Assembly: GCA_903813345.2 (NCBI GenBank)
Contig: CAIIXF020000004.1
Location: 24,121,985-24,185,984, forward strand
Reading direction: 5' to 3'
Length of the DNA stretch: 64,000 nucleotides
From: Owenia fusiformis
Taxonomy: Eukaryota; Annelida; Polychaeta; Sabellida; Oweniidae
The position numbers and the translations under genes are program-made. Positions 1-62,610 of the stretch are shown in pieces (the stretch's first letter is position 1; each line of letters opens with the position of its first letter). The notes under the pieces are model-generated. The model saw only the letters and a list, made by a program, of their open reading frames with translations. It was not told the origin of the DNA and made no database searches.

Positions 1-172
1 TGTTTTGTTTGTATGATTAAAGGCTAATATTTCAAAAAGTATTCATTGTTTCTGTAGCTGTGAATGTTGACTCAAACACATCCGGTTGGTATATATCGTT
101 ACGGCATTGTAATCTTTATTTGTATACATGTCAATGTCCCAAAATATGATGATGTCTTCCGCCATTTATTCC

Positions 173-179
173 TATATAA
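173..179 (+). promoter_or_regulatory. TATA box of gene A
   Basis: TATATAA lies 38 bp upstream of the start codon. The surrounding ~200 bp is conserved upstream of genes B and C, including a shared GACACAATG start context. The 5' leader must be very short unless transcription starts elsewhere. Confidence 0.65.
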
Positions 180-217
180 CCACCCCCCTTTACGGCAACT
201 TTATGCTGATCGACACA

Positions 218-3200: not shown

Positions 3201-6200
3201 TAATATAAGTTCATGAAATTAAAAACATTTGCATCAGTGTTGCGACTGCATTGTTTAATTGCAATGAGTCAAATAAGAACTACAATTTTTTATTGCTTGT
3301 GTCTTTTGAATTTATATTTAACGGGAATTTTTGGGAACTTATTCCCAAGCGAGGTAGATACAATCCCCTCCATAAATTCGGCAACCTTAGCTCCCCCATT
3401 GAACTACGTGTTAACGCCTCTTTACGTTTGAATTTTTATTTACTTAACTTGCGATGAAAATACTTTATAATATAATATTGATGGAAACGTATCTTGACTT
3501 TATTTTCAAAACCTCAAAATTTTAGGTCGAAAATTGATGATAAATTTGATGTATTTTTGAAAATAGACATTTCCATGTTAACCAATGAGAAATGGTAGGT
3601 TTGCCGCAAGTCATATGACAGAATATCCATCCATCCGAGACCTTGCAAAAATACAATTTAGGTACACAATTGAATTTGATAACTTTATTTAACAAAAATT
3701 GATTTGGGCGAAAATGATTTTCAAAAATGACTTTGTACCTCTGTAACTTTAGTTTTCATCGAGTAAACTAAAGACTTAATGAAAATATTGTATGTTGTAA
3801 TTGGGGAAAAAATTGGGAAATTTTTGAGGTATTGGAAATAAAGTGAAGTTACGTTTCCATCAATATTATAGGTCATTTCATCGCCGGTTAAGTAAATGAA
3901 AAATTCAAACGTAAAGGGGTTTAAATACGTCGTTCAATAGGGGAGCTAAGGTTGCAAACGCTATGATAATTATCCACCGTGCTGTAACCACACGGTCTTG
4001 AGTTTGGGACGTGTGATCTCCTTGTCTTTATTTATCTGTATATCTGTACACAGCCAATATAATTCGGCGCCGTTCCGGCATCGAAAAAATTCGGCGCTGT
4101 TCCGGCACCGTTTCGACACCGTTCCGGCACCGAAACCTTTTGACACCAAAATTTGCTACCGGACTAGTCAGTCCATTTACAAATTGTCATTTGTACATCT
4201 TGAAATATTAATGTTCAAGTCAATTCAAGTTGGATTTACAAGCACTGATTGTTCCGTCGATTTCAATGAGTTTTAGCCATACCTGCTATCTTTGAAAGCG
4301 CATGCATTAAGCTCTAGAAAATTGTTACCTTGATTTTAATTTTTTATCAAAGTAATAGGTTATTGTTTGAGGATAACATTCCTGGTTCTAAAACCATATT
4401 TTGGTAGAAAATAAACACTCTGTGAAACATTTACAGCCCCTTGGTCACTTTGACCTCTGTCTATTGACATTTTTAATATGCTATGCACTTGAATTGTAGG
4501 TAACATATTGTTTTTATGTGAATTTGTCTAAGCAGTTCTGAAGACCCAACTTGTGAAAAAAACATAGATTATATAATTATTATCATTTACATCCAACACG
4601 AAATAGTATTGCTCAATTCAAAGATTTAGGAAATATCACAAAACAGAGAATTATCGTCTTGAAGTACCTCTTGACAAAACAACTTTCGCCCAGTTGTGTG
4701 TAAATGTGTTTATGAATATATGTGAGCCAAGAGAAAAGGCCAAATAAATTGTAATGCGTATACATATTACCTCTGGTACGTCTGGGCGTTAACACCTGTT
4801 CTCTCAAGTCAGATTAGCCAGTGACAAAACTTTTTATTCTATATTGCCGATGATCTCGAGTGTTGAACACGTTGAGCTAGGCGCTTATGCCGTATCCAAG
4901 ATGTCGTCTGTTCGAAACCCTTGAGCTCCCTGCGTTTATTCATGAAATAAATTGTTCGTATTGTGATGCGTTGTCATTTTGATATTGATTCTTTCTGAAT
5001 TCTCGACAAATGAAAATACATACATATCGTGTTTTGCTTCACATTACATGTTTCGATATGTATGCTTAAGTATTGATAATATAAATGTTGATGTATTATA
5101 GTTTCTGAGAGCTATGCCCACAGGGATAGGAAAGGTAGGAAAGGTGGGAAAGGTCGCGATCCGCCGCCTCAACAGCCCCCAATTGCCCAACGTCCTGTTA
5201 TTGGAAGAAGTGAGTAAATACATTGGAGAGCACGTATCATTCACGTATCAATAAATCCGATTATTATAATTTATATGAGTTGTGTGTTACTTTGATATGC
5301 TATTGATATTGAATATAATGAAAACAATCAAACGAATCACAGATTCAATACAAGCATCTTTTTCAATGTTATTACTTATCTTCTTACAAAACAGAATGTA
5401 TATGGAGTGACTATGGTGATGAGGAATATGGGAAATGTTCTGTTAGTTGTGGGGGAGGCACACAACAAGTGATGCGTTACAGGTACAAGTTATACGGTGA
5501 TGCAGAGACCGGGAATCTAGAATGTATTGGTTCAAGCTTCATGTATGTGAGAACCCAATCGTGTAATACTCAGTCATGTCCAGGCCCTCAAACTACTCCA
5601 AAAAAGATCATTCCACCTGGACCAGGCCCTCAGCCGCCTCGACCTCAACCGATTGTCCCACCTCCTGTCCCAGGGAGAAGTGAGTAACCAGTTTGATTAA
5701 ATGTATAAATAACAAATATATAATTAATTTTGGCAATGACGTAATTGTTTAGAAAGTCTTGTTTATGCTAGCGATAAACAGATGAGATTATATACTCGCA
5801 GTTACTATCATATAATATTGTTTCCACACAGAATGTAGATGGAGTAACTACGGACGAGAGAAATTTGGCCCATGTTCTGTAAGTTGTGGAGGCGGCACAC
5901 TTAGAGTGACACGTAAAAGGAACAAGCTATACGGTATTGCAGAAACCGGGGATCCAGAATGTTACGGTTCGGACACAGAAGTTATTAGAACACAATCATG
6001 TAACACTCGGCCGTGTCGAGGTGAGTAACCAGTTCAATTAAATATACGCACTGATACAGTGATCGTTATTATGAATTTGGTATTACATAATAGAATAGTT
6101 TCTAAATAGCAGAAAAACAATGAAATCTAGTGCTGCCATCTTTTATTCAGCTTTTTGGCTAAAGTTTGATCCACTTACATGCTAAAATCTTGGAAAAGTG

Positions 6201-9200
6201 GCTTAATTTCATGATTTATCAAAGAGTGTTAGTTGAATCTGTATAAAACTTGAATGATATACCATATGAGGACCCTGTTTATGTACACGTTGTGATTCAA
6301 CATGCAAATGTTGGTTGACATAGAATTTTAGCATTTCATGTATGGAGATTTAGCCCAAGTTTTTTAAATTGTCATAGAAAATTATTCAAATTACATAACT
6401 GTGTAAATCAAAGCTATTATAGAAGAAAATATTTCACTGAATTCAGATATGCCATTTAAAAGAAGGTAATGTAAGGTTTAATATGCAAATCTCTTAAAGT
6501 GTGCGCCAAAGTTTAATACTGCGCAGGCGCAGCGTTCTCGCTTAACTATATAAAGATATCACCGGGTACATGATTCAGAGGTAAGCAAGGAAGGCGAACA
6601 ATCTTCGTCTCGTGATGATTTACCGTATAATCGTAACCAGGGAAGTTTCACCATTGAAATTGAAAATTACTATTAGATGTAGTTTGTAGATGTTATTTAT
6701 GAAGCTATTTAGTGTATGTATCAATCAAATGGCTCATTTTGGACATATAAAAAGTATTTGTCTTTTGTTTCCCCTGAAATCGTATTCCCACACATAAATA
6801 GTGTACATTATGTAGTACATATTGAATAGCCTGGTATAGTAACACCGTGTTTATATAATATTGAAGGGCATGCTGATTGTACACACGAGTACATGCATGC
6901 AAGAAGGCCTAATTTTATATAGCTTGCATACCTAAATAAAAAATAAACCCTTCTAATCCCCTTATGTAAATACGGCGGTATACGTAGCCCGATTTATCGG
7001 AATCTTTAAAATCTCACAAAAATGAGATTAAGCTTTTCAAAAGCTATATGGAAACTACACTATTGCTAAGGATGGTGTTTTAGCAATAATGACAGATTGA
7101 AGAATAGAGCGATTTCGGTAAAGTTCTCATTTCAAATTCGTATTTAAGTATATTTGAAATCTTAAGGGTCTTGTCACAATAAATCAATTTGAAATCGATA
7201 TTCATGAACTCTATCAAGTTTACACAATAGCTCCAAGTTGTAAAGCTCATTCATCAATGCATGACGGCGGATGTAATATCGTTGCATCGTTGTTATTTGT
7301 ACAGTATCAACTTAATACCTAGCTTTTGTGGCGTGGTGTGCTCCCAACATGTGAATAATTCCACAGTTCCTGTTAAAGTTTAAGTTGAGATATAAGTTTA
7401 GAACGTATAAAAGGCATATGTACGTGCGATGATTGTTAACTTTTAAAATTAGATCTCCGAGTAGACCCTGAATTATATTCAGAGTATCCAATCAAACACT
7501 TTTACTTCCATTTTGATACACTAATCAATCCAATCTATGTTGGAGATTTATAGAGCGGGCCATTTTGATGCATAATAAACTCAAATCCAGTTTTTTACAG
7601 GGTGTTCCATAATATTCATCATCGAAGATAGTCCTCTAATGTATGAGTTTTGACGAAAAGTTTTAACATACGCAGAAGTCCCATTTTCGTAGTACCATAT
7701 TGACTGAATAGTTTTGGATATTGTTTATAACAATAACAGACTCATGAATAAAAGCATCTATACCAGTGCTTATATCAAAATGTATACACTATTTTTTCAA
7801 CACAGGGTGTAGATGGAGTAACTATGGCTCAGCAACATTTGGTCCATGTTCTTCACGTTGTGGAGGTGGCGTATTAACGGTTACACGTACTAGGACCAAG
7901 ATATGGGGTCCAAGTGGGGATCCAGATTGCTATGGTTCTAACACTGATGTGAGAACACAGTCATGTAACATGCAGCCGTGTCAGCCCGTAATCATCCCAC
8001 AACCACGACCCGTTCCGCAGCCTATAGTCATTCCGCAGCCAATCCCAGTTGTCCCGCATCCAATCCCAGTTGTCCCGCATCCAATCCCAGTTGTCCCGCG
8101 TCCAATCATACATCAAAGTAAGGAACTAGTTGATTAACATTTATCCATAATAATTCGGATAATAATCATCTCTAGGGGCTGATTTATAATTGTCATTGCA
8201 CGTTAGATAACTTATAAAAATGTGATTACATATGAAAGATCAAAAAGAATTCAAATGTTTTATTTATTGTGGTCAAAGTTGTGTCCGGTGCTTCAACAAT
8301 TTTTTCATTATGGCATCGTTTAAAACAAAGTTCCTATCTTAATCTTAAATGTTATTCTATTTCATCATATGTGAACCACATTACATATTTTAGAATATAT
8401 GCGTGATCCTTTATTTAGTTAATGACATTTATCTGGTTATGGTCTACATATACTCATTTACTGAATGTATGGCGTACTTTTTATAGATAATAGGGCAATC
8501 AAGCTTGCATATAAAATCGAAACGCCAACATATGACCAATCGCCCATACAAATGCATCGCTTAAATATTTTCCGTTCACGTTTTGGTTGTGAAAAACTCC
8601 TTAATATTTAGATTATTGATGACATTGCAATTCATCATTCCAAATAATATATTATTGTATTATAAGATTGCCAATGGGGACCATGGACGAGATGGCAACT
8701 ACTGGAACCATGTTTCACGTTCGATCAACGATGTGGAGTTGCGATGAGTCGACGATCACGCCGGTGCTATTGTAATGGGATTGAAGTGGATCCTCGACAC
8801 TGTACTGGTATTGCAGTAGAACAAACCACGAGACCTTGCTGCGTCGACCATCCTGGACCTCAACCACCTCGTAAGTAGACATCTAACTCGCAAGTCATCA
8901 AATATAGAATAAACGATTTGCAAAATTTTGCGGTAACGATAACAAAAAACTGCGGATGGGATAGACAGCATGTCCTCTTTCTCGTCTATAGACAAGATTC
9001 ACAGATGAGATTTCCGCTTCAAATAGTTCCATTCGGTAACGTATAATGGTTATAAAGTCTGGGTGAAATCTGCCGAGTGGCTTGCTAGAAGCAGAATATA
9101 AGCTGTAAACTTACCGACTGAGATATTCAAGTTCATAATTTTTAGTCCATTCTCGTGTTTTCTCAATATCTGTGCCTCATAGCCACACAAACTATTTACT

Positions 9201-12200
9201 GTAAGTAAATTGTGTATAAACAAGCCATAAAATGACAAATCCAGAACAGGAATGTGGTGTTTATTGTAAATAATAAGGTTTCAAACGCAATGTTGTTAGA
9301 CGACTACGTAGATTACTAAACTTGGTGTAGTTTTGAATTTCAAACTCAACAGTATCTCGATTATTTCATGTTATCCCCGGGCATCAATTCGCAAAGACTA
9401 CGTTCAAAATATACATTACTAAATGCATCACCGAAGGCAATGCTTACATAAATCGTTCATCCTTTCATTGATACACAGTAGTAGAAAATAATGCACCAAC
9501 CCTAGTTTTCTGTTCCATCGCGGCCATTTTATTGGATGGATCAGTGAACGTAGCCGTCCAACCTTGTCGTAACCATCATGCTATAGCAGGGTGATACTGT
9601 TATAAACAAACCATTGTTCTTCTTCCCTTCATATGCATCCTCCTTTAAAATATGTCTTTAAAATGATTGTATGAGATTCGTTTAGCTAAATGTGTTTAGT
9701 TTAACATTTTTCTATCAGCTTTCTTCGCCACTTTTATGACAAGCTATGATATTAACAATGTGAACATTTGCTAATGAGTGTAAATGTTTTCGAAAACAAT
9801 TTCACTTACAATAATGGGCCGTGTGGGTTCACAACCACGTTGTTAATTTTTGGAATTCATTGATTTGATAGATTAATCATTTTTTCATTCTTCGTGTGCA
9901 TAAGTTATAAGAATATCTTGCTCTAGCCCCTCGTGTGCCCATGTGGTGTCCCGCCCTATACCCTAAGTATTTATGTGGTGGCGAACGGTGAGCCCGAACG
10001 GCCTAATGTGACAGCTCCATTAAATAAAACTATTTGCAAAATTGTTAAAATATGTTACGTAAGACAATTTCCTCACTTCCTCACTCCCATTATTGTAATA
10101 TAAATGTATGTATTGATGACACCAAGTCCCATACTTTTGATCTTTAGAATACGTGTTAGCTCCTATTATTAAAAACCCATAACTTACTGATACCCATGGC
10201 CTTATATCATACGGTTGTTGCAAACTTTGGTCATAAAACATGAACGCTTTTCAACGAATATGTTTATTTATTAGCAGACGAAGATTTCGGTAGAAGCGAA
10301 AGCATAATTTATGTGTATACGTAAAGAGTATAAGTGAATTGAAATTGGGATTTTGCAACAATATGCACTAATACGTATAGAAACAATTTTAATTTAATTT
10401 GTTTCACCAAAATTAAATATTTCCCCTTCCAAATTCCTTATGTATAAGATGGTTTTGATAATGTGACTATTATATGACTTCATGCCAAGTCTAGTATTAT
10501 TATGATTCCTGCCAATACCTACTGTATATCTAAACGATAAAGGGTTTACTGACTTGTAAACACCATGATATAGGCGATTGCTTCTTTTGAAAAGCTATGC
10601 AACCAATGACAAATGATATCATAATAGTTATAGACTCCCTTTAAAAGTTATAACATAAAGGATTTATAAACACTCTACAAGTGTTCTGCGAAATCTCTAT
10701 GTATTCATAAAGTATAAGGATGAGCTAGCTAAGTTGGAGACAGCTAAGTAAATATGCATATATTCATAGACTATAGACCAACGTTTAATTGTTGCAATTG
10801 GGAACTATAACATGACATACTGTAATCAAGCATGAACCATCGTTTATTTATTTCCTAGAACCAGGCTGTGGCATATGGGGAAAGTGGATGGATGTTCCTG
10901 GAAAATGTAATCCACCAGCAGATTGTACACCACTTGTTCCAGTGGGTAAGAAACGAGAGACATGTGTCATCACGACATACAAATGCCAAGTAGTAAGGCA
11001 GTGTACACCATGTCCAGGAATACCAAAAGGTTGCATAGGAGTCGCATTCAAAACAGAAGATCGCCAATGTTGCAAAACAGGTATGGTGGAAGAATAATTT
11101 ACTGTAGCTATTATCAGAGGTGCAAGGGTTATCAGAACAGAAAATCACATATGTTGCAAACAGCTATAGTGGTAGAATAATTTACTATAGCTAGTATCAG
11201 AGGAAGGGTTATCGAAACAGAAGATCGCACATGTAGTAAAGCAGATATAGTGGTAGAGTTATTTATTATAGCTAGTATCAGAGGTACAAGGGTTATCAAA
11301 ACAGAAGATCGCATATGTTGCGAAGCAGATATTGTGTTAGGATGATGATTATCTATAGCTAGTATCGGAGGCTCAAGGGATATCAAAACAGAAGATCGCT
11401 TATGGTTTAAAACGGGTATGGTTGTATACTTATTTACTATAACTATTATCAGAAGTATAAACATGGCGTAGAATAATGGAAATAACGTCACAACACATGC
11501 GCGTAAATTGACATTTCATGGTCCAAAGATTTCAATGGAGAGCAGTCTTCATCAAAATTTAAAATCTTAATAACTTTTTAGCAAATAATTTATTTTCTTA
11601 GGATTCAACGGATCCTTGTTAGACTCAACGAAGTGTTCATTTTGATATATAAAACAGCAAAATCCATCCACAGATCTTTCGGCTTTTTAATGATTTAATT
11701 TTTGGGATATTTTGCTAAAATCCCCCATTGGCTGCCATTACAAACTTTGAAAAAACTCAAATCCTCATCATTTCATATCATTCGTTAAGTGGTCTAAACA
11801 ACTCCAATCGCTTAGGATTCAACGGATTCTAAGAGATCAAAGCTAATACAATATGTTGACAACCCCCGTTTCAATATTTGCCGCATAATCTTTCGGCCTT
11901 TTAGGTTATAAATTTGTCAATATTTTGATTTTCGACGTACTTGGATCCTAGATTCATTGTCCCGGTGTAAAAGGGTAGGAGGTCCTATCAAATTATGGTC
12001 CTACTCTCCATTGATTTATATGGTGACCTAAATACAACTCTTTCCCTCATTATCTTATACACAATCAGGGCCAGTAAGGGCCGTTAAGAAAGGGGACCAT
12101 AATCCCTGGGGGATCATCATTTCTTTCACACCTGGGCAGTTCTAGAGGTTTTAGTGCTAGTTTAGAAGGCGTTCATTTTACTATATCGACCTGAGAAATA

Positions 12201-15200: not shown

Positions 15201-16405
15201 GTACATAAATCAAATATAAATGTGTAAAAACAAACAAATGTATTACGTGATTCGAATTATTTTAATAGAGTGGTATATCGAATGGTTGTAATCAAATACA
15301 AAAGTGTGAAAATCGAATAAAGATGCAGAAAAAATTCCATAACATTAGGACAGTATTCCTATAGCTGTTCGATAAAAATAAAAAATATGTCCACATTTAT
15401 CTCATTCGTCCATTTAAATGGCATTGCATGGGTAATAGACACTTAAACCACACTTAAGTAGCAACACAATAGAATGAACGGTGCTTTATTTTTAAGAATA
15501 TCCAGCTAAAACAAAGAGCAGTGTATTATTTTTCTATTGTTTTTTAAGAGTCAACACTTGGCTTTTGCTAGCCAAAACCAGTGTGGCATAAAAGACAATT
15601 GACCGTCACATGCAATGCACTTACGCTTAACTAATTATACCATATCCACGCCTTCAATAGTTGAAAAACGTTAAACTGTACATGCCGTGTTAAATGCACT
15701 GCACTCAAGATGGGCTAATTACAGCCACTCACTTCTGAATAAGCGTACCCAAGTCAATACAAAAAAAAGAAATTCAATTTTCTTTAAATTGGATCTTTTG
15801 GTCCAATTTTGGGTTTAAGGAGAAAAAATTGTTTTGTCTAATACCTCGTTGTTTATCCCTAACATAAAAACAGAATGAAGCCAACTCTATAAAATATAAG
15901 CTAATTTTCATTGATTTCCTATTACACGATGGATTATTTGTAGGTCCAAAGCCAACAACAAAAAAACAGACAACCCCAAAGAAGACAACCCCAAAGGCGA
16001 CAACAACAAAACCAGCGACAACAACTAAAAAAGTAGAACAGTGTCCAAAATATACCTGGGGACTATGGGAGGACTGTGATAATCCTGGTTGTTCTCCTTT
16101 TCTTGACCACCCTGGTTTTCCACAGAATATAAGACGAAAACGACAGCAGCCTTTTAGTTGCGTTAGCGTAGAGGAAACAATTTGTAAACGCGTTAGCACG
16201 GGCTGCACTAATTGTGGCGGCAAAATTTGCCCCAAGGAGCCGCAATTTGAAAGAAAAAAATTGAAATGCTGCAGTAAGAAAACATAAAACTCGAAAATAA
16301 TTTGATAAATAACATAAACACTTTCATGTTGCTAAGTATAAGATTTCTTAACCGTTGAAATTCATGCTTGAATAATTTTTTTTTGTTTTTGTTTCAGATG
16401 TCTAA
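218..16405 (+). CDS. Gene A: secreted modular TSP1-like cysteine-rich protein (9 coding exons)
   Basis: Reconstructed by splice sites and phase: exons 218-272, 5102-5209, 5395-5679, 5832-6020, 7806-8117, 8667-8870, 10859-11080, 15944-16273 and 16398-16405, totalling 1713 nt (570 aa plus stop). Order: hydrophobic signal peptide with a likely cut after S-Y-A (residue 25); basic Gly/Lys/Pro linker; three TSP1-like modules (C-x-W-S ... CSxxCGGG ... QSCxxxxC) with Pro-rich tails; one type II module; one type III module; a Thr/Lys-rich stalk and a 10-Cys type IV module. All internal introns are phase 1. No transmembrane segment is visible, so the product is probably extracellular. TSP1 domains in known proteins bind matrix and glycosaminoglycans; the actual role here is unknown. 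Could be a matrix, adhesive or immune-type secreted protein. Confidence 0.8.
1919..2630. mobile_element. Foldback MITE, copy 1 (CACTCCCCTCC-type TIR)
   Basis: Long imperfect inverted repeats (CAATCCCCTCC... at the left) with a second internal inverted pair around AAAATTGATGATAAATTTGA. Gene C intron 1 has the uninterrupted site at about 60740-60760, which fixes the boundaries. Same family as 3361-3956 and 22018-22907. No coding capacity. Confidence 0.75.
3361..3956. mobile_element. Foldback MITE, copy 2 (right end truncated)
   Basis: Nearly the same as 1919-2630 but with an internal deletion and the right terminal repeat cut off at GGTTGC, where it joins a copy of the 3120-3180 flank. Probably arose by local duplication rather than a separate insertion. 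Confidence 0.65.
4062..4140. repeat. GC-rich short tandem motif (TTCGGCGCCGTTCCGGCAC)
   Basis: Degenerate tandem copies of a CG-rich ~20-bp motif, clearly different in composition from the AT-rich intron around it. Confidence 0.6.
4848..4930 (+). repeat. tRNA-like segment, possible SINE head
   Basis: A GTTGAGCTAGGCG block followed about 40 bp later by GTTCGAAACCC resembles the A and B boxes of a tRNA promoter. A diverged copy sits at 61432-61495 in gene C intron 1, so it predates the duplication. No complete tRNA cloverleaf was traced. Confidence 0.35.
5102..5209 (+). CDS. Gene A exon 2: end of signal peptide and basic linker
   Basis: Starts V-S-E-S-Y-A, a sequence shared with genes B and C (V-x-E-S-Y-A), giving a likely signal-peptidase site after SYA. 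The rest is RKGRKGGKGR followed by Pro/Gln. It has no cysteines, unlike its counterparts in B and C. Phase 1-1, acceptor TTATAG, donor GTGAGT. Confidence 0.8.
5395..5679 (+). CDS. Gene A exon 3: TSP1-like module 1 with Pro-rich tail
   Basis: Six-cysteine module: C-x-W-S, CSVSCGGGT, then C and QSCNTQSC. It is followed by a long Pro/Gln tail. This exon is orthologous in position to exon 3 of gene C. 285 nt, phase 1-1. Confidence 0.85.
5832..6020 (+). CDS. Gene A exon 4: TSP1-like module 2
   Basis: Begins K-C-R-W-S and carries CSVSCGGGT, the basic VTRKRNK strand, GDPECYGSD and TQSCNTRPC. No Pro-rich tail. 189 nt, phase 1-1, CACACAG acceptor and GTGAGT donor. Confidence 0.85.
6021..7805 (+). other. 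Gene A intron 4
   Basis: No exon found. It holds an isolated promoter-like patch at 6509-6600 (a CG-rich near-palindrome followed by TATATAAAG) and at about 7603 a CAGGGTGTTCCATAATATTC sequence like a mariner-family end, without a partner. Confidence 0.45.
7806..8117 (+). CDS. Gene A exon 5: TSP1-like module 3 with PQPIPVVPHPI repeats
   Basis: TSP1-like core (CRWSNYG, CSSRCGGGV, DPDCYGSN, QSCNMQPC) followed by a tail with tandem copies of P-I-P-V-V-P-H. The DNA repeats almost perfectly, so copy number may vary between individuals. 312 nt, phase 1-1. Confidence 0.85.
8118..8666 (+). other. Gene A intron 5
   Basis: AT-rich intron of 549 bp. I see no repeat, RNA gene or exon in it. Confidence 0.5.
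8667..8870 (+). CDS. Gene A exon 6: type II WG-x-W...CC module
   Basis: Encodes C-Q-W-G-P-W-T, two spaced cysteines, RRSRRCYC, HCTGIAVEQ and RPCC. The tryptophan ladder, Arg strand and C-x-G spacing look like a strongly diverged TSP1 fold with a terminal Cys-Cys. Three copies of the same module are in gene B. 204 nt, phase 1-1. Confidence 0.8.
8911..9592. mobile_element. TIR element, degraded copy (family of 59338-60611)
   Basis: About 680 bp matches the outer parts of 59338-60611 and lacks that copy's internal ~545-bp insertion. The right end (GTCGTAACCATCATGCTATA) is clear; the left terminal repeat is eroded. It lies in intron 6 of gene A. No coding region recognised. Confidence 0.65.
9593..10858 (+). 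other. Gene A intron 6, remainder
   Basis: AT-rich with a GC-richer patch at about 9925-10018. No exon, RNA gene or defined repeat recognised. Confidence 0.4.
10859..11080 (+). CDS. Gene A exon 7: type III 10-Cys module
   Basis: Begins GCGIWGKWMDVPGKC and continues with DCTP, ETCV, YKC, RQCTPC, GCIGVAFKTEDRQCC: ten cysteines ending in Cys-Cys. Gene B 44762-45019 is the counterpart. The 3' end with its GTATGG donor has been copied downstream as a decaying tandem array. 222 nt, phase 1-1. Confidence 0.8.
11046..11470 (+). repeat. Tandem array of the exon 7 3' end and splice donor
   Basis: About five degenerate units of 82-87 bp. Each copies the end of exon 7 (ACAGAAGATCGC...TGTTGCAAAACAG), the GTATGGTGG donor and ~45 bp of intron. 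A sixth unit at 12462-12545 has been split off by an insertion. Confidence 0.75.
11481..12454. mobile_element. Candidate insertion with a terminal hairpin
   Basis: Interrupts the exon 7-derived array between its fifth and sixth units. Its ends read AATAACGTCA and TGACGTTATT, an inverted match. The right end is a near-perfect hairpin (12354-12454). About 90 bp (12036-12130) also occurs at 51525-51592, so at least part is dispersed. No coding region seen. Confidence 0.45.
12354..12454. repeat. 100-bp hairpin
   Basis: Inverted arms of about 48 bp (AATAACGTCATTTCTG... and ...AGAAATGACGTTATT) around a short TTC loop beside GGGCC/GGCCC. Likely a foldback MITE or the end of the surrounding insertion. 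Confidence 0.75.
14297..14553. mobile_element. Small inverted-repeat element at the centre of the foldback
   Basis: Ends GTAGTTGAATC...GGGTTTATCG and its inverted partner, about 32 bp each. The similarity continues outward for ~50 bp, so this may be the loop end of the larger palindrome rather than a separate insertion. Confidence 0.45.
14564..14851 (-). CDS. 95-codon ORF in the foldback right arm, unknown
   Basis: Begins MDKTSEEKEFEYDSYSQF, acidic and hydrophilic. The left arm has the same start at 13510 but hits a stop after 28 codons. Conservation between inverted arms could reflect recent duplication rather than coding function. I do not recognise the protein. Confidence 0.3.
   Translation of the reverse strand: MDKTSEEKEFEYDSYSQFREEIEKLLDHRHEATRDPFLIKDTFSRLENHTYLVPRLSLRSSLANVLFFCLYDYNMGEFSTLLTLKIPISIDSLAF
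15344..15943 (+). other. Gene A intron 7, distal part
   Basis: AT-rich sequence between the foldback and exon 8. No repeat or exon recognised. Confidence 0.4.
15944..16273 (+). CDS. Gene A exon 8: Thr/Lys-rich stalk and type IV 10-Cys module
   Basis: Starts with a low-complexity Thr/Lys/Pro stretch of about 40 residues, a possible O-glycosylation stalk. A module follows with WGLWEDC, NPGCSPF, DHPGFP, RRKRQQ and a terminal LKCC; its ten cysteines match gene B 46246-46572 one for one. The donor GTAAGA directly follows CTGCA. 330 nt, phase 1-1. Confidence 0.8.
16398..16405 (+). CDS. Gene A exon 9: terminal two codons and stop
   Basis: After a TTTTTGTTTCAG acceptor the frame completes one codon, adds Val and stops at TAA. 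Gene B has the same arrangement (46734-46741), which supports both models. Confidence 0.7.
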
Positions 16406-21300: not shown

Positions 21301-21487
21301 TTTCGATATGTTCGATTGTGTGTGTTTAAGGACTAATATATCAAAAGTTTTGAATTGTTTCAGTTGCTCTGAATTAAAAACATGAAATACTTTATGTGAC
21401 ACATTGCAACGGTATTGTTATGTATAGTTGCTAACACGTCAAAGTACCAAAAATGTGATTTTTCTTTCGCCCATGCATGTTTGTCCC

Positions 21488-21494
21488 TATATAA
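21488..21494 (+). promoter_or_regulatory. TATA box of gene B
   Basis: TATATAA lies 40 bp before the start codon, in the same CCCTATATAACCA context as gene A. Farther upstream, 21140-21190 has a CATGCGCATGC block that aligns with 50370-50425 upstream of gene C. Confidence 0.65.
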
Positions 21495-21533
21495 CCAATC
21501 CCCACCATGACAAGTTTGTGCTTTTTCGACACA

Positions 21534-42616: not shown

Positions 42617-44030
42617 CATGTTATGGGCATTGACCTTTAAAGTAAAAAATTAGTACCGTGGGTACTGGGCCCACATGGTGTTGCTCAAAAGTGAAAATAA
42701 AAAGACGGGTATAATTTCTTGCAGATTTTTTGTGGCAAAATTATTTCATACAACTACTCTTTACAAAGACATGGCTTTTTACAATGCAGGACACGTGAAC
42801 TTATTTGTAAAGCTAGGAAATGGGCCAAAAGTGAATTTCCTGAGACAAAAATGGTGGCCATTTTGAAATTAGGCGAGATTTTGAAGCAGGAGTCACAGGT
42901 TTTTTTTCTTTATTGATGTTGAACAAAATTATTTTAAATCGGGAATCCTATCTACAGAGGATTTAAAAAGTGTTGACAGAGGTTTAAAACTTGCCACTTT
43001 TTTGGGCTAACTGAGAGACAGATGGACGAATCAATGTTAACTAAAATGGCTGAAAATAAAAAAAACTCATATAATATTTTGCCGATTTTTGTAACAAAAT
43101 TATTTAATACAACTACTCTTTACAGTGACATGGCTTTTTACAATGCAGGACAGCTGAAATTATTTGTAAAGCTATGAAATGGGCCAAAAGTGAATTTCGC
43201 AAGACAAGAATGGTGACCATTTTGAAAATAGGCGAGCTTTTGAACCAAGAGTCATAGGAGAGTTTTTTGTATTGATGTTGAACAAAATTAACTTAAAACA
43301 GGAATCCTATCGACAGAGGGGGTTTAAGGCAAATGGTCCAAAAGTGGATTTTGCGAGACAGATGGACAAATCAATGTTAACTAAAATGGCTGAAAATAAA
43401 AAAATTGATATAAGTTTTTGCTGATTTTTCGTAACAAAATTATTTCATACATCTACTCTTTACATTGACATGGATTTTTACAATGTAGGACACTTGAAAT
43501 TATTTGTAAAGCTAGGAAAAGGGTCAAAAGTGAATTTCGCAAGACAAAATGGCGGCCATTTTGAAAATAATCGAGCTTTTGAGCCAGGAGTCATAGGGGA
43601 GTTTTCTGTATTGATGTTGAACAGAAATAACTTAAAACAGGAATCTTATCGACAGCGGTTTTTAAACGTGCCACTGTTGTTGACGGAAAAGTGGATTTCA
43701 CAAGTCAGATGGACAAATCAATGTTAACTAAAATGGCTGAAAATAAAAAAAATAGATATAATTTTTCGCTGATTTTTTGTAACAAAATTATTTCATATAT
43801 CTACTCTTTACATTGACACAGATTTTTACAATGTAGGACACCTGAAATTATTTGTAAAGCTAGGAAATGGGTCAAAAGTGAATTTCGCGAGACAAAAATG
43901 GCGGCCATTTTGAAAATAGGCGAGCTTTTGAACCAGGAGTCATAGGGGAGTTTTCTGTATTGATGTTGAACAGAAATAACTTAAAACAGGAATCCTATCG
44001 ACAGAAGTTTTAAAACGTGCCACTATTGTT

Positions 44031-44062
<32 letters not shown>

Positions 44063-47177: not shown

Positions 47178-47651
47178 TAGAAGGATGATTTTATTTTCGA
47201 TCTAGAAAATATGTCAAAGATAAAAGAGAAAGTATGACCCATAATTACAATATTATGTTACAATATACAACGTGCCTTTACTTTGGATCAACCTAATGTT
47301 TGCTTTAGCTACTTCTCAAATTGGGTAGATACAGCGAATAGGTAATTGCTAACAATTTAAATGAATGCAGGAGTACTTAAACATAAAATATTTGATATGA
47401 AGCAAATATCAGCGAGCAATATCAGATGCTCAGCTATCAAAAAGGCTGGGATGTCTGAAACTATACTATTTTCAAAACCCGTAGTGTTGAGCGAAATTGT
47501 CTACTCGAGAATATAATATTTGATTTAACATTAATTTTTAACATTGCTTTCTGAGAAGTCACATGCACTTTTGCATTCAATTTTATCTCATCATTTCGAA
47601 ACATGTCATAGATTTATTTGTTTTTGCACAATTATATTCGATTTATGTATA
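47178..47651. repeat. Copy of gene B intron 2 sequence between genes B and C
   Basis: Aligns with 23670-24002 plus 24326-24490, lacking the SINE. Continuing after the mariner, 49621-50073 corresponds to the MITE at 24491. Either a segmental duplication or a dispersed composite repeat. Confidence 0.7.
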
Positions 47652-47653
47652 TA

Positions 47654-49615
47654 CAGGGTGATCCAGAAGTAACGTCAAAGACATTTTAATTTCAAAAGTA
47701 TTCATCAGATCTTCATTGAATTTGGTATACATGTACCCACAACATTTCTGAGTTACCATCTCAAAGATTGGAATTCAATCATTTCATTGGTTGAAATTAT
47801 GGTTGCTATAGTAACCCGATATCGCGTAACCCGGGGCAAATTGAAGAGAAACCATAACGTTTTTGTGAATTTCTCTAATTTAAAAAGTCAGTAACATTTG
47901 AAAATGTTCATTGTTTGTTTTCTATGATTTTTATATTTGTTGCCATGGTAACAAATATGTAATAGTTGTGATGTCACAATAGGCATTCATAAAAAGCTTT
48001 CAATTTCTTTGAATTGCTTCCATCATCCATGACAAATACTAACATGACCAAGGACACTAACCCACCCAATTCAAGATGGCGCCAAGTCAGAGTAAAATAG
48101 AGCAAAGAACAAACATTAAGTTCTGTGTAAAGTTGGGGAAAGGTGTAAAAGAGACTATAAGACAGATAAAGAAGGCATATGGTAAAGCTGCCATTGCTGA
48201 GAGAAACATTTACAGGTGGTTTAACAAGTATTCCAGTGGATATGATGAAGTGGTAGACAAGCAGCGAGGAGGCAGGCCAGTGTCGTCATTCGATGATCAA
48301 ACCATCAAAGCAATTGAAGCTGATGTTATGGACAATAGGCAAATTTCTATCAGAGAATTGGCTGAAAAACACGATCTGAGCTATGGGACTGTGCAACGGA
48401 TACTGACAAAGAACTGTCTGTTAAAGAAGGTGTCTGCTAAATGGGTGCCGCATGACTTGACACAGGAGCAGAAAGACCGGCGTGTTAAGGCTTCAAGGGA
48501 CTTTCTTGCAAAATATCGGAGAGATGGAGATGACTTTCTTAACAAGATCATTACGAGTGACGAATCATTGCTATCATTCTACATCCCAGAGACCACGCAA
48601 CAAAGTTCATCGTGGAAACATGACAACTCCCCAACACCAACCAAGCCTAAAATAGTACCAGGAATTCCACAAAAGAAACAAATGGTTGTGACATTCTTTG
48701 ACATTAGAGGAATGGTGTTAACCCATTTTGTTCCCATTGGCCAGAGAATTAATGCCGTTTACATTGCAAAGGTAAGATATCATTTGTTCTAATAATACAT
48801 CATACTGTGAATTTTATTTTTAAATTAAAGTATTTAAATGTTGTTCACTGTCAATATAATTATAACTCCATGGCCATGATTCAAATCCAAATCCAATCAA
48901 TGAAACAACTGGTTTAACAACCATTAAACATTTGTTTTTCAGGTTCTGAAGCGTGATCTTCAACGTTCCCTGAGGAAAAAGCGTCCCGGACATCTGCAGC
49001 AGTTTATCTTGCATTGGGACAATGCCCCTACGCACACTGCAATCCTGACCAGCAACACAGTCCAAACACTTGGATTTCAACAACTTGAACATGCCCCTTA
49101 TTCACCTGATCTTGCCCCCAGTGACTTTTATTTGTATGGGGAACTAAAAAGAAACCTTAGTGGAAATAATTTTCAATCCTGTGAGGAATTGAAAAATGCC
49201 GTAGTACTAGCCCTACAAGGAATGAGTTCTAATGGATTTAATTCTGTGTTCAAGGAATGGGTATCCAGACATGAGAAATGTGTTGCAAATGGTGGCAATT
49301 ATGTAGAATGAACTATTATTAGTAACTGTGCAATAGTATGATTTATATTGTTGTGAAATAAAATGTTGAGGATATAACAATTTCAGATCTTGTTGATATT
49401 TTGAGATTACGCATTACACGTTAAGTAATTTGCCCCGGGTTACACGATATCGGGTTACTATAGCAACCATAATTTCAACCAATGAAATGATTGAATTCCA
49501 ATCTTTGAGATGGTAACTCAGAAATGTTGTGGGTACATGTATACCAAATTTCATGAAGATCTGATGAATACTTTTGAAATTACAATGTCTTTGACGTTAC
49601 TTCTGGATCACCCTG
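47654..49615 (+). mobile_element. Mariner transposon, structurally complete
   Basis: 1962 bp flanked by TA. Inverted repeats of about 190 bp, starting CAGGGTGATCCAGAAGTAAC, differ at only a few positions. It encodes one transposase (48076-49311) and sits at a site whose empty form is seen at 24490 (GATTTATGTACACTG). Near-identical ends and an open frame point to recent insertion. Confidence 0.9.
48076..49311 (+). CDS. Mariner transposase, two exons (intron 48772-48942)
   Basis: Cut-and-paste transposase of the Tc1/mariner superfamily. Exon 1 (48076-48771, 232 codons) holds the paired-type DNA-binding region: a first helix-turn-helix around residues 15-60 (RNIYRWFNKY), the GGRPVS linker near 66, a second HTH around 80-115, then WVPHDLT and the first catalytic Asp in TSDESLLSFY (D162). 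Exon 2 (48943-49311) holds HWDNAPTHTA (D258) and YSPDLAPSDFYLYG (D293). Spacing is D,D34D, as in true mariners. The product is 354 aa, close to the usual ~345. The 171-bp gap has GT-AG ends, a TTTGTTTTTCAG acceptor and in-frame stops; mariners are normally intronless. Without splicing the protein would end after ASP1 and be inactive. Confidence 0.88.
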
Positions 49616-49620
49616 TATAT

Positions 49621-50073
49621 ACTGTACTCCCGGTAATTTTCGAGCGATACTATATTTCGCGTTTTTCGTGATTTTGAAAAATTCGCGAAATATAATAGCC
49701 GCGAAATTCACCCAGTTTTAATTTGCGAAATTTGATAGTCGCGAAATTCCAAGGAAATTTCCGGGGATTTCAATGTTGACAATATTTCGTCCACTTTTCG
49801 TCCGCATTTTTAGTTTTGAAATAGAGAAATTAAAAGAGAGATCGTTATTAGTGTATTTAAATGATTATTCTATCGAAAAGGCAAAACCATTGGGTGAAGG
49901 AACAACCATGGCTGTTATCAAACTCGAAAGAGTGATCTTGTATGACAAGTCCGCGGACATTAAGAGCCGCAAAATTTTAAAAATCTTAAAATTAGCGAAA
50001 TAAAATAGTCGCGAAATATCAAAATGCCAAAAACGTGAAATATGATAGCGCCAAATATTTGTGGGAGTACAAT
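49621..50073. mobile_element. CTGTACTCCC MITE, undivided copy
   Basis: About 453 bp. Ends ACTGTACTCCCGGTAATTTT and inverted GGGAGTACAAT. The body is full of TTCGCGAAAT and its complement. A 76-codon frame inside (49773-50003) matches degraded sequence at 29155-29240 but looks incidental. Confidence 0.65.
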
Positions 50074-50696
50074 ATGTGGTAACACTTTTGAATATGCGGT
50101 GAATTTGTATCTATTGTATAAGTACTAGTCTAGAATTATGCTCGATCGGTGAATTTTCAAATGCGAACTTAAAAAGTCTCGTCTCTCAATACAATATGTT
50201 GTTCAATAAATATGTCCAGAAAGCACAAGTAAAATTGCATTTTAAAGGTTTTAAATTAATATAAGGAGGTATGAGATATATCAATATCAGGGGGGCGATT
50301 GTAAGAATTATACCTTACATTATCTTATATGTAACATCACGTAATTATTCTATCATCCAATGGAAATTGAGATGTTGGCATAACCACATGAGGTGAAGCA
50401 TATGCTTTCTGTGTTTTTCTCATTTCTCAAATCATTACATTGGTGCGCCATAACAGTTGGTAATTTGTAATTTCATTCAAAAGCATCGGTTGAGGCAATA
50501 ATACGTCAAATATATCTTTCGATCTGTTTTGTTTGTATGATTAAAGGCTAATTTATCAAAAAATAGTCCTTGTTTCTGTAGTTGTGAATGTTGACACAAA
50601 CACATCCGGTTGGTATATATCGTTACAATATTGTAATCTTTATTTGCATACATGTCAATGTCTCAAAATATGATGATGTCTTCTGCCGTTTATTCC

Positions 50697-50703
50697 TATA
50701 TTA
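50697..50703 (+). promoter_or_regulatory. Altered TATA box of gene C
   Basis: TATATTA stands where genes A and B have TATATAA, about 55 bp before the start codon. The rest of the proximal promoter closely matches gene A positions 1-217. Confidence 0.5.
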
Positions 50704-50751
50704 CCATAACCCTTGATAATCCTTGATGGCAACTTCATTTTGTTCGACACA

Positions 50752-50809
50752 ATGCAGAGTAGAGTAAGCATCTTAACAGCGGCCCTAGCCATAGCGCTGG
50801 TAGGACTAG
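50752..50809 (+). CDS. Gene C exon 1: signal peptide
   Basis: MQSRVSILTAALAIALVGLG, one codon longer than gene A exon 1 and otherwise nearly the same. Donor is GTTAGT, weaker than the GTAAGT of gene A. Confidence 0.65.
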
Positions 50810-59800: not shown

Positions 59801-62299
59801 TAGATGGGCATTAGATATTTCGCGGACGGTTACGTGCATGTGCATCTTTCAAGTTAAGGTTGTTGCTAGTTCTGATAGCCTCTTTCCATGTTATTGCTAT
59901 AATGGGTAAGAAATGGAATATTGAATTGCTTATATTTGTTTTCAGGACTCGCAAGAGACGCTCTTGTTTGAGCCTCTATAGGCCAAGGAAAAAATTGTGT
60001 CTTGCTTTATTCATGAAACCAATTCAAGTAAAAAAGATAGCAATGAAGAGGCAAAAGAAGAATTAGCATCAAGTACTGATGAATATGACAAAATTAATAA
60101 CTATGAATCTTGGATACATATTTGAACGAGGTTCGCGTAACTGTCAATCAATTTTTTGCCTAACCGCAAATTAAAAATACAATATTATGACTTAAGTAGA
60201 ACATATTAGGTGGTTTCCAATGCTCAATTGGCTTTTTGTGATTGTATGTAGGTTACATCTATATACCCCGAGGTCGTTAGGCAATGTAGACCATGCCCTA
60301 ACGACAAAAATAAACAAATTACTAAATTCTGTGTAGTTTTGAATTTCAAAATCAACAGTTTTTCGCTTATTTCATGTTATCCCCGGGCATCAATTTGCAA
60401 AGAATACGTTCAAAATATACATTACTAAGTGCATCACCGAATGCGATGCCTACAAAAATCGTGCATCCTTTCATTGATACACAGTAGAAGAAAATAATGC
60501 ACCAACCTTAGTTTTCTGTTCCATCGCGGCCATTTTATTGGATAAATCAGTGATCGTACTCGTATAATCTCGTTTTCAGAGGTGTCGTAACCGTCATGCT
60601 ATAACACCGTGAATTTCATGAAATTAAAAACATTTAATCGGTGTTGCGACCGCATTGTTAAATTGCAATAAGTCAAATAAGAAAGACCATTTTTATTGCT
60701 TGTATCCCTTGAATTCATATTTAATGGGACTCAAGTGGGGTAGATATATTAAGGTCTGTCACCATATGCTACGGGGAGACATATTGCATCTCATGGGTCA
60801 CCTGTGAATATATATGCATGAGAGTTTTTTTTGATTGAAGAAAACAAATTGCCATTTGTACAAATTGTCATTTTTACATCTCGGAAAATGAATGTTAGAG
60901 ACAAATCAAGTTGGATTTACAATTATGGAGTTTTAGCCAGAGTTTTTATTGTTTTAGGCTAACATTCCTGGTTCTAAAAACATATTTTGATAAAAAATAA
61001 ATAATTTGTAAAACATTTACAACCCTTGGTCACTTTGACCTCTGTCTATTGACATTTTTAATATGCTATTCATTTGAATTGCAGATAACATATTGTTTTA
61101 GTGTAACATTGTCTTAATCCAGCAGTTTTGAAGACCAAACTTTTGAAAAAACATAGATTATATTATTATAATCATTTACATCACACGAAAATAGTATTGC
61201 TCAATTCAAAGATTTAGGAAATATCACAAAACAGAGAATTATCGTCTTAAAGTACCTCTTGACAAAACAACTTTCGGCTAAATGTGTGTAAAAGTGTGTA
61301 TGAATATGAATATAAGCCAAGGGTAAAGACCAAATAAATTGTAATGCGTATGAATGTTACCCCTGGTACGTCTTGGCGTTAACACCTGTTCTCTCAAGTC
61401 AGATTAGCCGATGACAAAACTTTTTCTATTTGGCCGATGGTGTCGAGTGTTGAACATGTTGAGCTAGGCCGTATCCATGACTCGAGACCCTTGAGCTCAC
61501 TGCGTTAATTCATAAAATAAATTGTTCGCAACGTGATGCGTTGTATTTTGGTCATTTTGGTCATTTTTCATACCGATTCTTTCTTGACAAATGAAAATAC
61601 ATCTATTGTGTTTTGCTTCACAATACATGTTTCGATAAGTATTGATAATATAAATGTTGATATATTGTAGTTGCTGAGAGTTATGCCCAAAAAGGTAGGA
61701 AAGGTGGGGACAAGGCATGCATGAAAAATTGCAATGAAGAAAATCGCCGATGTAAAAAGATTTGCAAGAATGGATCGCCCCCAATCGATGGGAGAAGTGA
61801 GTAAATACATTGGAGAGCACGTATCATTCACGTATCATTAAATCCGATTATTTTAATTTATATGAGTTGTGTGTTACTTTGATATTGATATCTAATGATA
61901 TTGAATATAATATGAGAGCAATCAAACGAATATCAGATTCGATATAAGCATATTTTTCAATTTTATTACTTATTTTCTTACAAAATAGAATGTATATGGG
62001 GTGACTATGGTGAGGAGAAATACGGGGAGTGTTCTGTTAGTTGTGGAGGTGGCACACTACCAGTGACACGTTACAGGTACAAGTTTTTCGGTGAAGCAGA
62101 GACCGGGGATCCGGAATGCATTGGTTCGAGCTATATCTATGTGAGAAGCCAATCGTGTAATACTCATTCATGTCCATCCATACAGACTTCTCAACCTCCT
62201 CCAATAAAGATCATTCCTCCTGGACCGGTCCCTCCGCCTCCCCAACCGATTGTCCCACCTCCTGCACTATATAAAATAGAGAATATTGCTTGGTTATAA
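50752..62299 (+). CDS. Gene C: short TSP1-like secreted protein, possibly truncated (3 exons)
   Basis: Exons 50752-50809, 61671-61796 and 61989-62299 (to TAA) form one open frame of 164 aa: signal peptide, Lys/Cys-rich segment, one TSP1-like module with Pro-rich tail. Compared with gene A exon 3, the tail matches up to PIVPPP and then diverges where the donor should be, running to a stop. No TSP1, type II, III or IV exon follows before the window ends. A 10.9-kb first intron carries several transposons. It may be a functional short paralogue or a decaying one. Confidence 0.55.
51121..51199 (-). repeat. Split direct repeat B2
   Basis: TTAAAACTGGTCCTCCGTA... through TGTGCCGCTAT, matching 53209-53288. 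It forms the outer edge of the element. Confidence 0.75.
51200..52620. repeat. Degenerate tandem repeats with CCTCGGAGG/CCTCAGAGG motifs
   Basis: TGCCCCGGAGGCAAA-type blocks recur at about 51400, 51699, 52015, 52171 and 52304, alternating with TTCCTCAGAGGTAAAC and AATCCTGGCAT. A larger piece at 51175-51350 is repeated at 51778-51960. It lies between repeats B2 and A2 of the retroelement, where those repeats would normally adjoin. Confidence 0.7.
52941..53073 (-). repeat. Split direct repeat A2
   Basis: TAAATTTAGCAAATGCTGCC... to CACTTAAATAGAAC, matching 56328-56451 except for a short internal duplication (ACTCATTCT). Confidence 0.75.
53209..53288 (-). repeat. Split direct repeat B1
   Basis: Matches 51121-51199. 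It lies just downstream (minus strand) of the recombinase remnant. Confidence 0.75.
53405..53978 (-). pseudogene. Tyrosine recombinase remnant
   Basis: Minus strand: a core-binding start (GEPKTIENYAYKFSKW), then FLRYEE (~53641-53658) with the position of the first catalytic Arg, and a C-terminal SDCSIDGYVESNIQER with the nucleophile Tyr at about 53454-53456. The His-x-x-Arg region between is scrambled by frameshifts. Matches the DIRS/Ngaro recombinase layout. Confidence 0.7.
54275..55480 (-). pseudogene. Reverse transcriptase and RNase H remnant of the DIRS-order element
   Basis: Fragments on the minus strand: VEVSKVVNPITV and FLDDA (reverse transcriptase catalytic region, ~55430-55300), SDASSRACGEYVLEY (RNase H first Asp), DNTGVVNIVNKGSM, WIPRELTRNAESIS, and VDIFADN ... 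AVDSFSQDW. Frameshifts and stops throughout. Confidence 0.7.
56328..56451 (-). repeat. Split direct repeat A1
   Basis: Matches 52941-53073. Its outer end is the boundary of the element against sequence shared with gene A (GGCATTTAG.AAAATG). Confidence 0.75.
56519..56770 (+). pseudogene. Ty3/Gypsy pol fragment
   Basis: Reads GYFRRYIPEISAVASPF ... VVWTAECE, then with shifts LLTTAPIF, PDFNMEF and LRGIGG: the connection between reverse transcriptase and the first Asp region of RNase H in Ty3/Gypsy pol. Only ~250 bp remain, with no LTRs nearby. Confidence 0.65.
57344..57676 (+). pseudogene. PIF/Harbinger nuclease, N-terminal fragment
   Basis: 110 codons: RLFRDRSQPLEMTDDEIL, YRMPRPLILELIN, then SLRFYATGCMQ and GDIFGVSQTTVS, the conserved start of HARBI1-type transposases. 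The catalytic DDE part is absent; the frame ends at TAG next to GTAGGC, which might be a former donor. Upstream 56770-57340 is rich in CGCAAAT/ATTTGCG motifs, perhaps the element's subterminal region. No partner Myb-like gene found. Confidence 0.65.
57680..59337 (+). other. Gene C intron 1, mixed segment
   Basis: Contains imprecise AGGGATCCATACT repeats (57825-57965), a mariner-like end at 57985 (ACAAGGGCCGATCAAAAAG) without partner, and from about 58665 sequence collinear with gene A 1186-1760, interrupted by a ~110-bp insertion near 58777-58889. No exon found. Confidence 0.5.
59338..60611. mobile_element. TIR element with CACGGTGTTATAG ends, unknown family
   Basis: Inverted ends CACGGTGTTATAGCATGACG and its complement (about 28 bp). 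Gene A near 1755 shows the empty site, giving a likely AATTT duplication. An internal ~545-bp block (about 59772-60315), absent from the copy at 8911-9592, is a nested insertion; it contains an IR (GTCGTTAGG...CCTAACGAC, 60273-60305). No transposase recognised. Confidence 0.7.
60612..61670 (+). other. Gene C intron 1, distal part
   Basis: Collinear with gene A 1755-1915 and 2631-2705, then 4166-5101, without the insertions there. No exon. Confidence 0.6.
61671..61796 (+). CDS. Gene C exon 2: Lys/Cys-rich segment
   Basis: V-A-E-S-Y-A, QKGRKGGDKACMKNC, RRCKKICKNG, then Pro and GR. It combines the basic linker of gene A with the C...C...CKKIC pattern of gene B exon 2. 126 nt, phase 1-1, donor GTGAGT. 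Confidence 0.75.
61989..62299 (+). CDS. Gene C exon 3: TSP1-like module, reads through to a stop
   Basis: CIWGDYGEEKYGEC, CGGGTLPV, GDPECIGSS, QSCNTHSC and a Pro-rich tail. The match to gene A exon 3 ends at CCACCTCCTG; the expected GGGAGAAGTGAGT donor is replaced and the frame stops at 62297-62299. Confidence 0.7.
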
Positions 62300-62610
62300 G
62301 AAGTGTCTATTTGTAAGAATCTCTTGTAATCAGCAGTAATCAGCAAAAATACTCAGCACATATAAACAGAGACATTACAGAGACAATACTCGCTGCATAT
62401 ATGGAACACTCTGTATATTCAGGTATTGCTCCTCTTTATTTGTAGAACAGCGCATATAAGCACTGATTATATGTGAAGTTAAGAATACTCAAATATATGC
62501 AAACGCAATACTTTGTAAGTGTGCAATATAGTCACACATTATTATTGCTTCTTTCTGACAATATTAAGCTATTTCTAAGTTACACTGCTCATTTTATAAC
62601 TGAGCATACA

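Follow-up and report, generated by a model that had tools for sequence, protein, structure and literature searches.

Proteins with arrays of TSP1 modules are known from several settings: ADAMTS and ADAMTS-like proteins and properdin carry such arrays, and SCO-spondin has vWD, TIL and LDLa modules. In the available text on the tubeworm Paraescarpia echinospica, TSP1 is named as an enriched domain of the tube matrix proteome (PMC8476170). The available text on the flatworm adhesive protein Mlig-ap2 describes a secreted protein with multiple C-terminal TSP1 repeats, which is part of a glycosylated external material (PMC6410801), and SCO-spondin, a secreted thrombospondin-family protein, is described from Owenia itself as Ofu-SCO (PMC5543218, as far as that text was available). 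Here, a 64,000-bp stretch of the Owenia fusiformis genome (the window; contig C4:24121985–24185984, plus strand; assembly of 498.26 Mb in 525 contigs) was analyzed. It contains part of a gene array predicted to encode secreted TSP1-repeat proteins that also carry unlisted modules, designated types II, III and IV.

The proteins of genes A and B, the first two genes in the window, resemble the TSP_1 (PF00090) proteins in their TSP1 modules (A over the Pfam cut-off, B just under it) and differ from them by the absence of the W..W motif and by modules II–IV, which are without a Pfam family. The TSP1_ADAMTS family (PF19030) passed its cut-off in A, and neither a metalloprotease match nor a properdin-specific match was detected in A or B (Pfam, E up to 0.1). 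Unlike SCO-spondin, A and B showed no vWD, TIL or LDLa match, are arrayed and are much shorter. The Paraescarpia tube proteins are likewise annelid and contain TSP1, being likened here by description alone, and modules of types II–IV are not mentioned in the available part of that report (PMC8476170). Mlig-ap2 differs by its size (14,794 aa), by vWD, TIL and LDL domains and by 46 long repeats, and a gene array is not mentioned in the part available (PMC6410801). Searches of an open-access library, judged by titles and abstract beginnings, revealed no oweniid tube proteome, no description of oweniid tube proteins and no report on the array family.

The first-pass annotation had counted three genes. 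Eight plus-strand units (0, A, B, C, D, E, F, and G) were found at 24.0876–24.3053 Mb of contig C4 (~218 kb), and the array runs past the window on both sides; positions above 64000 are given on the window scale, i.e., with the numbering carried on past the window end. Units 0, A, C, and F are A-type, and units B, D, and G are B-type. Exons were built from module homology and splice sites. The closed frames given in the annotation for A (1713 nt) and B (2154 nt) were reproduced with AG/GT at all junctions; the total for gene A equalled the earlier figure immediately, whereas the agreement for gene B was partly guided by it. Its description of paralogous, modular, secreted, cysteine-rich genes with promoters and terminal exons of their own was supported as well. 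The earlier observation is thus confirmed as real, but it is larger than described, includes one broken gene and had been assigned to the wrong phylum.

Gene A consists of nine plus-strand exons (570 aa) in a frame that closes, and all seven internal exons are phase 1-1 and multiples of three. The promoter region (1–217, TATATA at 173), which aligned to those of genes B and C, is followed by the signal-peptide exon (218–272) and by exon 2 with VSESYA and a basic, proline-rich stretch (5102–5209). Three TSP1 exons follow: module 1 with a proline-rich linker (5395–5679), module 2 (5832–6020) and module 3 with a proline-rich repeat linker (7806–8117). Their TSP_1 scores were 17.8 (module 1 alone), 27.4 and 25.3 bits compared to a cut-off of 21.6. 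Next come the type II module, probably TSP1-derived and with CC at its end (8667–8870), the type III module (10859–11080), a Thr/Lys-rich linker with the type IV module (15944–16273) and an 8-nt terminal exon with the stop (16398–16405; AATAAA at 16500). About five 84-bp copies at 11048–11453, starting within the 3′ edge of the type III exon beside the donor, seem to be a decayed exon-edge duplication. A region at 23501–23614 was rejected as the last exon of gene A; it is exon 2 of gene B, located after the B signal exon and before the B-type bodies in D and G.

Gene B consists of 13 plus-strand exons (717 aa), also in a closing frame with AG/GT at every junction; of the 11 internal exons, nine have phase 1-1 and a length divisible by three, and the remaining two (116 and 94 nt) compensate each other. 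The promoter region (21300–21533, TATATA at 21488), homologous by alignment to those of A and C, precedes the signal-peptide exon (21534–21588) and exon 2 (23496–23611, phase 1 to 0), which has VSESYA and a Lys/Cys-rich stretch and whose DNA also matches the A-type exon 2. Exon 3 (29626–29719, phase 0 to 1, 94 nt) and exon 4 (29784–29831, 48 nt) are Cys-rich and retained with splice sites in D and G, and the proline-rich exon 5 (30407–30451) is retained in D, E, and G. Exon 3 was found by a splice-site scan, and exon 4 by a scan for a piece of the missing length, in which it was the best by eye among 25 candidates. They are followed by TSP1 modules 1 (31542–31784) and 2 (31953–32186), both with proline-rich linkers, three type II modules (33147–33383, 38308–38550, and 38640–38885), a type III module (44762–45019), a Thr-rich linker with the type IV module (46246–46572) and an 8-nt terminal exon with the stop (46734–46741; AATAAA at 46845). 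Tandem ~87-bp copies of the first part of a TSP1 exon, with acceptor and without donor, were observed at 31389–31592 and, on the window scale, at 109489–109800 and 131058–131369. Use of the upstream acceptor at 31452 could add a partial TSP1 to gene B, the predicted frame staying open.

Several lines of evidence relate these genes to each other. The promoter alignments A/B, B/C, and A/C were each unmatched by any of 200 shuffles (A/B score 81, shuffle maximum 29), and so was the alignment of the 3′ ends of A and B (score 100, shuffle maximum 27). Three copies of the start context GACACAATG are present (at 212, 21528, and 50746) compared to 0.68 expected, a count reached in 5 of 100 shuffles and weak when taken alone; all three matches open a signal exon. 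The next exon contains VSESYA in A (5102) and B (23496) and VAESYA in C (match at 61670). The shared promoter, start context, signal exon and V-x-E-S-Y-A region of the first-pass annotation are borne out. The order TSP1-II-III-IV-terminal exon is identical in A and B, so that its claim of common module order and matching terminal exons also held.

The recovered module exons of D, E, F, and G kept open frames and AG/GT sites, and length changes of module exons were multiples of three, e.g., 324, 327, 330, 333, and 354 nt for type IV. All 41 exons of A, B, D, E, F, and G that entered the comparison of substitution rates were in frame and open. Mapping yielded a terminal exon with stop only for A, B, D, and E. 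Edge-to-edge mapping also missed exon 2 in F, the first type II exon in both D and E, and the majority of the unit 0 exons, although their modules were found by search. The ratio of non-synonymous to synonymous substitution rates (dN/dS; Nei-Gojobori with bootstrap limits, ten unit pairs) was 0.60 for A-F, 0.57 (0.40–0.77) for A-0 at dS 0.68, 0.56 (0.40–0.78) for F-0 at dS 0.66, 0.50 for D-G, 0.46 for B-G, 0.44 for D-E, 0.42 for B-E, 0.39 for B-D, 0.38 for A-B, and 0.37 for F-G. The upper bootstrap limits were 0.50–0.95, below 1 in all ten pairs, and these are therefore selected coding genes; the coding sequence is under purifying selection of a fairly relaxed kind.

The predicted A and B proteins begin with a putative signal peptide and would have no second hydrophobic span: hydropathy (Kyte-Doolittle, 19-aa windows) peaked from residue 6 at 2.0 in A and 2.2 in B, and the maximum after residue 25 was 1.0 and 1.1, respectively. 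Assuming cleavage after residue 24, the mature proteins contain 8–11% Cys, 12–14% Pro and 9–13% Thr, with a pI of 8.9–9.3 and 46 (A) and 73 (B) cysteines. In A, a basic head after VSESYA is followed by three TSP1, one type II, one type III, a Thr-rich stretch and type IV; in B, a Cys-rich head is followed by two TSP1, three type II, one type III, a Thr-rich stretch and type IV. The TSP1 repeats of both sit on proline-rich linkers.

The full-length gene A protein reached 32.0 bits with TSP_1 in three stretches, above the cut-off, and 25.9 with TSP1_ADAMTS (cut-off 23.8). The gene B protein was marginal for TSP_1, with 21.0 bits in two stretches. Besides TSP1 families, nothing was detected in full-length A and B in the Pfam scan (E up to 0.1), and one TSP1 module searched against PDB weakly retrieved ADAMTS13 and thrombospondin-1 (8 sequences, E 0.03–0.23). 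The TSP1 alignments included 21 of 22 array exons, the frameshifted gene C copy and the half-exon repeats being excluded. Six cysteines were present in 16/21 modules, as was a CSxSCGGG-like motif. The O-fucosylation motif C..[ST]C..G was found in 16/21 array modules and in 11/11 at three other loci, whereas the TSP1 tryptophan ladder W..W was found in 0/21 compared to 10/11 (the remaining one is truncated at its start). W..W is variable in many TSP1 domains elsewhere; its loss in the array lowers the TSP1-family claim but does not end it. W..W was present in all 16 type II, all eight type III and all eight type IV modules.

Types II, III, and IV matched no Pfam family over the cut-off, and PDB searches with single type II and III sequences and with profiles of all three gave no match at E up to 10. 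The alignments included 16 of 17 array copies of type II (an identical second copy in gene C excluded; 13 of 17 for Pfam/PDB), eight of nine of type III (a partial copy in gene C excluded; seven for Pfam/PDB) and all eight of type IV (seven for Pfam/PDB). The expanded TSP1, II, III, and IV sets added 11, 9, 7, and 2 sequences, one of the added TSP1s lacking its start; these were drawn from eleven other loci and are not all of the genome matches. With the added sequences, the type II and TSP1 profiles aligned over the type II length (hhalign, 95.6%, E 1e-8) with a score of 44.0, compared to shuffle maxima of 19.4 and 17.2 (0/120 with fixed cysteines, 0/120 free); on array copies alone, the alignment was not significant. 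By profile comparison, type II is thus best described as a derived TSP1 repeat, remodelled to 8–10 cysteines ending in CC. Nine of the 16 array copies have nine cysteines, an odd number. The array may illustrate the origin of a new disulphide module from TSP1, the TSP1-II-III order being preserved at several loci of this genome.

A relationship between types III and IV is probable (93.5% untrimmed and 67.4% after trimming; score reached by 1/120 cysteine-fixed and 0/120 free shuffles). The similarity of type III to type II, reached by 1/120 in each shuffle type, suggests a weak link, and no link was seen between type III and TSP1 profiles (8 and 9 of 120). The profile alignments of type IV gave 9.1% with TSP1 and 48.5% over 13 columns with type II, both without shuffles. 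Derivation of all four modules from TSP1 is therefore supported by these comparisons for type II only. The mean pLDDT of AlphaFold models was 41.2 for type II (four window rows) and 39.5 for type IV (two window rows). The first-pass annotation did not recognise the full architecture from any characterised protein. Types II–IV indeed lack a Pfam match over the cut-off, type II is apparently a TSP1 derivative, and the TSP1-II-III order recurs at two other loci of this genome.

The array has a history of recent change. C and F were 99.5–99.9% identical across several kilobases, and the 5′ regions of D and G were 99.7–100% identical, whereas A and B are well diverged (dS 0.81); the identity of introns and flanks points to recent block copying. 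The promoter and signal exon of unit E are A-type, 99.2–100% identical to F up to 124014, and its body is B-type, 99.8% identical to D from 124016; no exon 2 was found for unit E. By these identities, unit E appears to be an A/B chimera with a sharp junction, and since the junction joins exons of the same phase it could still be read. Such a recent, clean chimera provides material for studying recombination of modular matrix genes. D and G have a common 72-bp deletion relative to B (103516/103517 for D), which removes the TATA-like element, and they may be silent or differently regulated. Related exons beyond the array lie on the minus strand and reach 24.328 Mb.

Gene C, which the first-pass annotation took for an intact member, is A-type but broken. 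Its promoter region (50525–50751, TATATT at 50697; aligned to those of A and B), A-type signal-peptide exon (50752–50809, donor GTTAGT) and exon 2 with VAESYA and a Cys/Lys-rich stretch (61671–61796) are all on the plus strand, like its first TSP1 exon (61989–62264), which ends short of a splice donor and lies in a region with 99.85% identity to unit F over 61600–62264. From 62265 to the window end at 64000, and on to ~67729, the exon is interrupted by a CACTA-like transposon of ~5.46 kb (junction 62264/62265, 3-bp target duplication) with CACTA-type ends CACTATATAAAA / CACTGTATAAAA, in which no ORF above 98 aa was seen; the last ~35 bases that had been assigned to a gene C exon are transposon sequence. 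Downstream, the second TSP1 exon carries a frameshift, and additional insertions and a partial internal duplication were found. A second CACTA-like insert was observed at 77459–82257.

Judging from layout, composition and analogy, the odds are about even that the array encodes secreted scaffold proteins, rich in disulphides, that go into a material outside the body, for example tube, cuticle or mucus. Disulphide-stiff modules on extended proline/threonine linkers, the O-fucose motif being kept in 16/21 TSP1 modules, would form a rod, probably O-glycosylated, that is suited to a secreted matrix, and the TSP1-type modules may bind glycans or other matrix proteins. Epidermal or tube glands would secrete the copies, which would be incorporated into the tube lining, cuticle or mucus; duplication may raise the dose, and exchange between A-type and B-type units could give new module combinations. 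The tube is the most likely location, followed by cuticle or mucus, with immune and neural settings kept as alternatives. The available text on tube building lists oweniids with other worms that choose the sediment used in their tubes, and describes overlapping thread layers in the tube of Owenia collaris (PMC4375521). The array would supply candidate oweniid tube proteins with exact exon coordinates. Several points weigh against a scaffold role. The material itself is guessed from the composition of the proteins, the lifestyle of the worm and analogy. TSP1 domains occur also in nervous, immune and developmental proteins, and the sushi domains found close to type II/III exons at two loci outside the array also fit immune recognition. 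Without W..W, the usual TSP1 binding surface may be altered in the array, and the low-pLDDT models of types II and IV give no predicted fold for types II–IV. An extended version of the scaffold reading, which we consider unlikely, holds that types II–IV form a new class of disulphide modules that budded off TSP1 and expanded genome-wide in an early-branching annelid lineage; the proteins would be the main cross-linking scaffold of the oweniid tube, with the odd type II cysteine bonding molecules and A/B exchange yielding scaffold variants.

Other functions were considered for the same proteins. Humoral immune recognition by secreted sushi/TSP1 modular proteins, in an array that diversifies by duplication and chimeras, would fit the chimera of unit E, the variation of module number between units and the sushi domains at two other loci, whether or not these share a gene with the nearby type II/III exons. 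No sushi domain was found in full-length A or B by Pfam scan, however, dN/dS below 1 in all ten pairs gives no sign of diversifying selection over whole exons, and the proline/threonine-rich linkers fit structural proteins at least equally, so that we regard this function as rather unlikely. More improbable still is a role as SCO-spondin-like secreted proteins, matricellular or glial, that would act within the intraepidermal nervous system or the overlying cuticle. TSP1 is a module shared with SCO-spondin; in A and B, however, the Pfam scan (E up to 0.1) detected none of the vWD, TIL and LDLa modules, both proteins are far shorter, and an array with recent duplicates would be unusual for single-copy developmental genes. 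In favour of this function, the available text reports expression of a SCO-spondin orthologue in the ventral cord and brain of Owenia fusiformis and antibody labelling of its radial glia-like cells (PMC5543218).

Two further explanations concern the genes themselves. The copy number might be largely an assembly artefact, with C-F and D-G representing haplotypes left unmerged, or copies joined wrongly, and chimera E arising from a false join. The near-identity of C and F and of the D and G 5′ regions would agree with this, as would small scaffolds that resemble extra copies (matches on contig C218 mirror those at contig C4:11.46 Mb). Such an artefact is nevertheless quite unlikely: A, B, and unit 0 are well diverged from each other, gene C has insertions of its own, and a single 32-Mb contig carries the units in order; even then, genes A and B of the window would stand. 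It is very improbable indeed that the exons represent open frames arising by chance, or dead copies. Gene C is broken, D and G have no TATA-like element, and terminal exons with stop were mapped in A, B, D, and E only, but the frames close, the exon phases are symmetrical (1-1), the splice sites are conserved and dN/dS stays below 1, all of which argue against this explanation.

Related modules also occur at other genomic locations. With a type II query from contig C9, 46 matches were obtained (E up to 0.01): 15 at contig C4:24.09–24.33 Mb, nine at C4:27.78–27.86 Mb, seven at C4:11.47–11.93 Mb, five on contig C9 (one with a stop), three on C12, four on C292, and three on C218. The mirrored matches indicate that contig C218 probably duplicates contig C4:11.46 Mb. 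At E up to 0.1, type III gave 16 matches, seven of them outside the array, and type IV nine, two of them outside; the unit 0 copy was not among the latter nine. TSP1 searches gave at least 95 matches at E up to 0.001 and at least 59 at E up to 1e-6. At C9:13.04–13.05 Mb and C12:6.53 Mb, the order is TSP1s, type IIs and type III, as in genes A and B. Sushi domains over the Pfam cut-off were observed near type II/III exons at two other loci (L017:753–1244 and L020:7703–7999, minus strand), and genes related to the array may accordingly be sushi-TSP1 mosaics. At a further locus (L025:378–1001, minus strand), one open exon contains two tandem type III-like modules, the second with a value of 0.0028 and the first not significant.

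The first-pass annotation had pointed to molluscs; the genome is that of an annelid. Three exons, one of them holding a stop, matched the erythrocruorin linker family PF16915, which we take to be annelid, over the cut-off, and control genomes gave none. Nine of ten strong homeodomain matches lie at contig C1:18.02–18.47 Mb, and among six homeodomain proteins fetched were one with a Lox5-like KLTGP tail and Lox2/Lox4-like sequences, signatures that are presumably lophotrochozoan. No genomic match was obtained for COX1, GFP or molluscan haemocyanin; the assembly may lack mitochondrial DNA, and the GFP and haemocyanin searches ran without a positive control, so these negatives carry no weight here. 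Oweniids branch early within annelids. A compact Hox cluster in chromosome 1 is described for the published Owenia fusiformis assembly in the text available (PMC9977687).

Other repeats and mobile elements were observed in the window. A ~4.6-kb insert in a gene B intron (24526–29115), absent from D and G, lies between long inverted repeats (155 nt, 96%; 316 nt, 91%), and its three minus-strand ORFs had no Pfam match over the cut-off. In gene B, the intron that separates type II module 3 from the type III module contains a 162-bp tandem array (39013–40153; 7.1 copies, 93%) and a 340-bp array (43016–44036; 3.0 copies, 89%). Between genes B and C, a Mos1-like mariner is located at 47647–49622 with 196-nt terminal inverted repeats that are 98% alike; its transposase ORFs are at 48061–48792 and 48928–49311, the first with HTH_48 and Transposase_1 over the Pfam cut-off.

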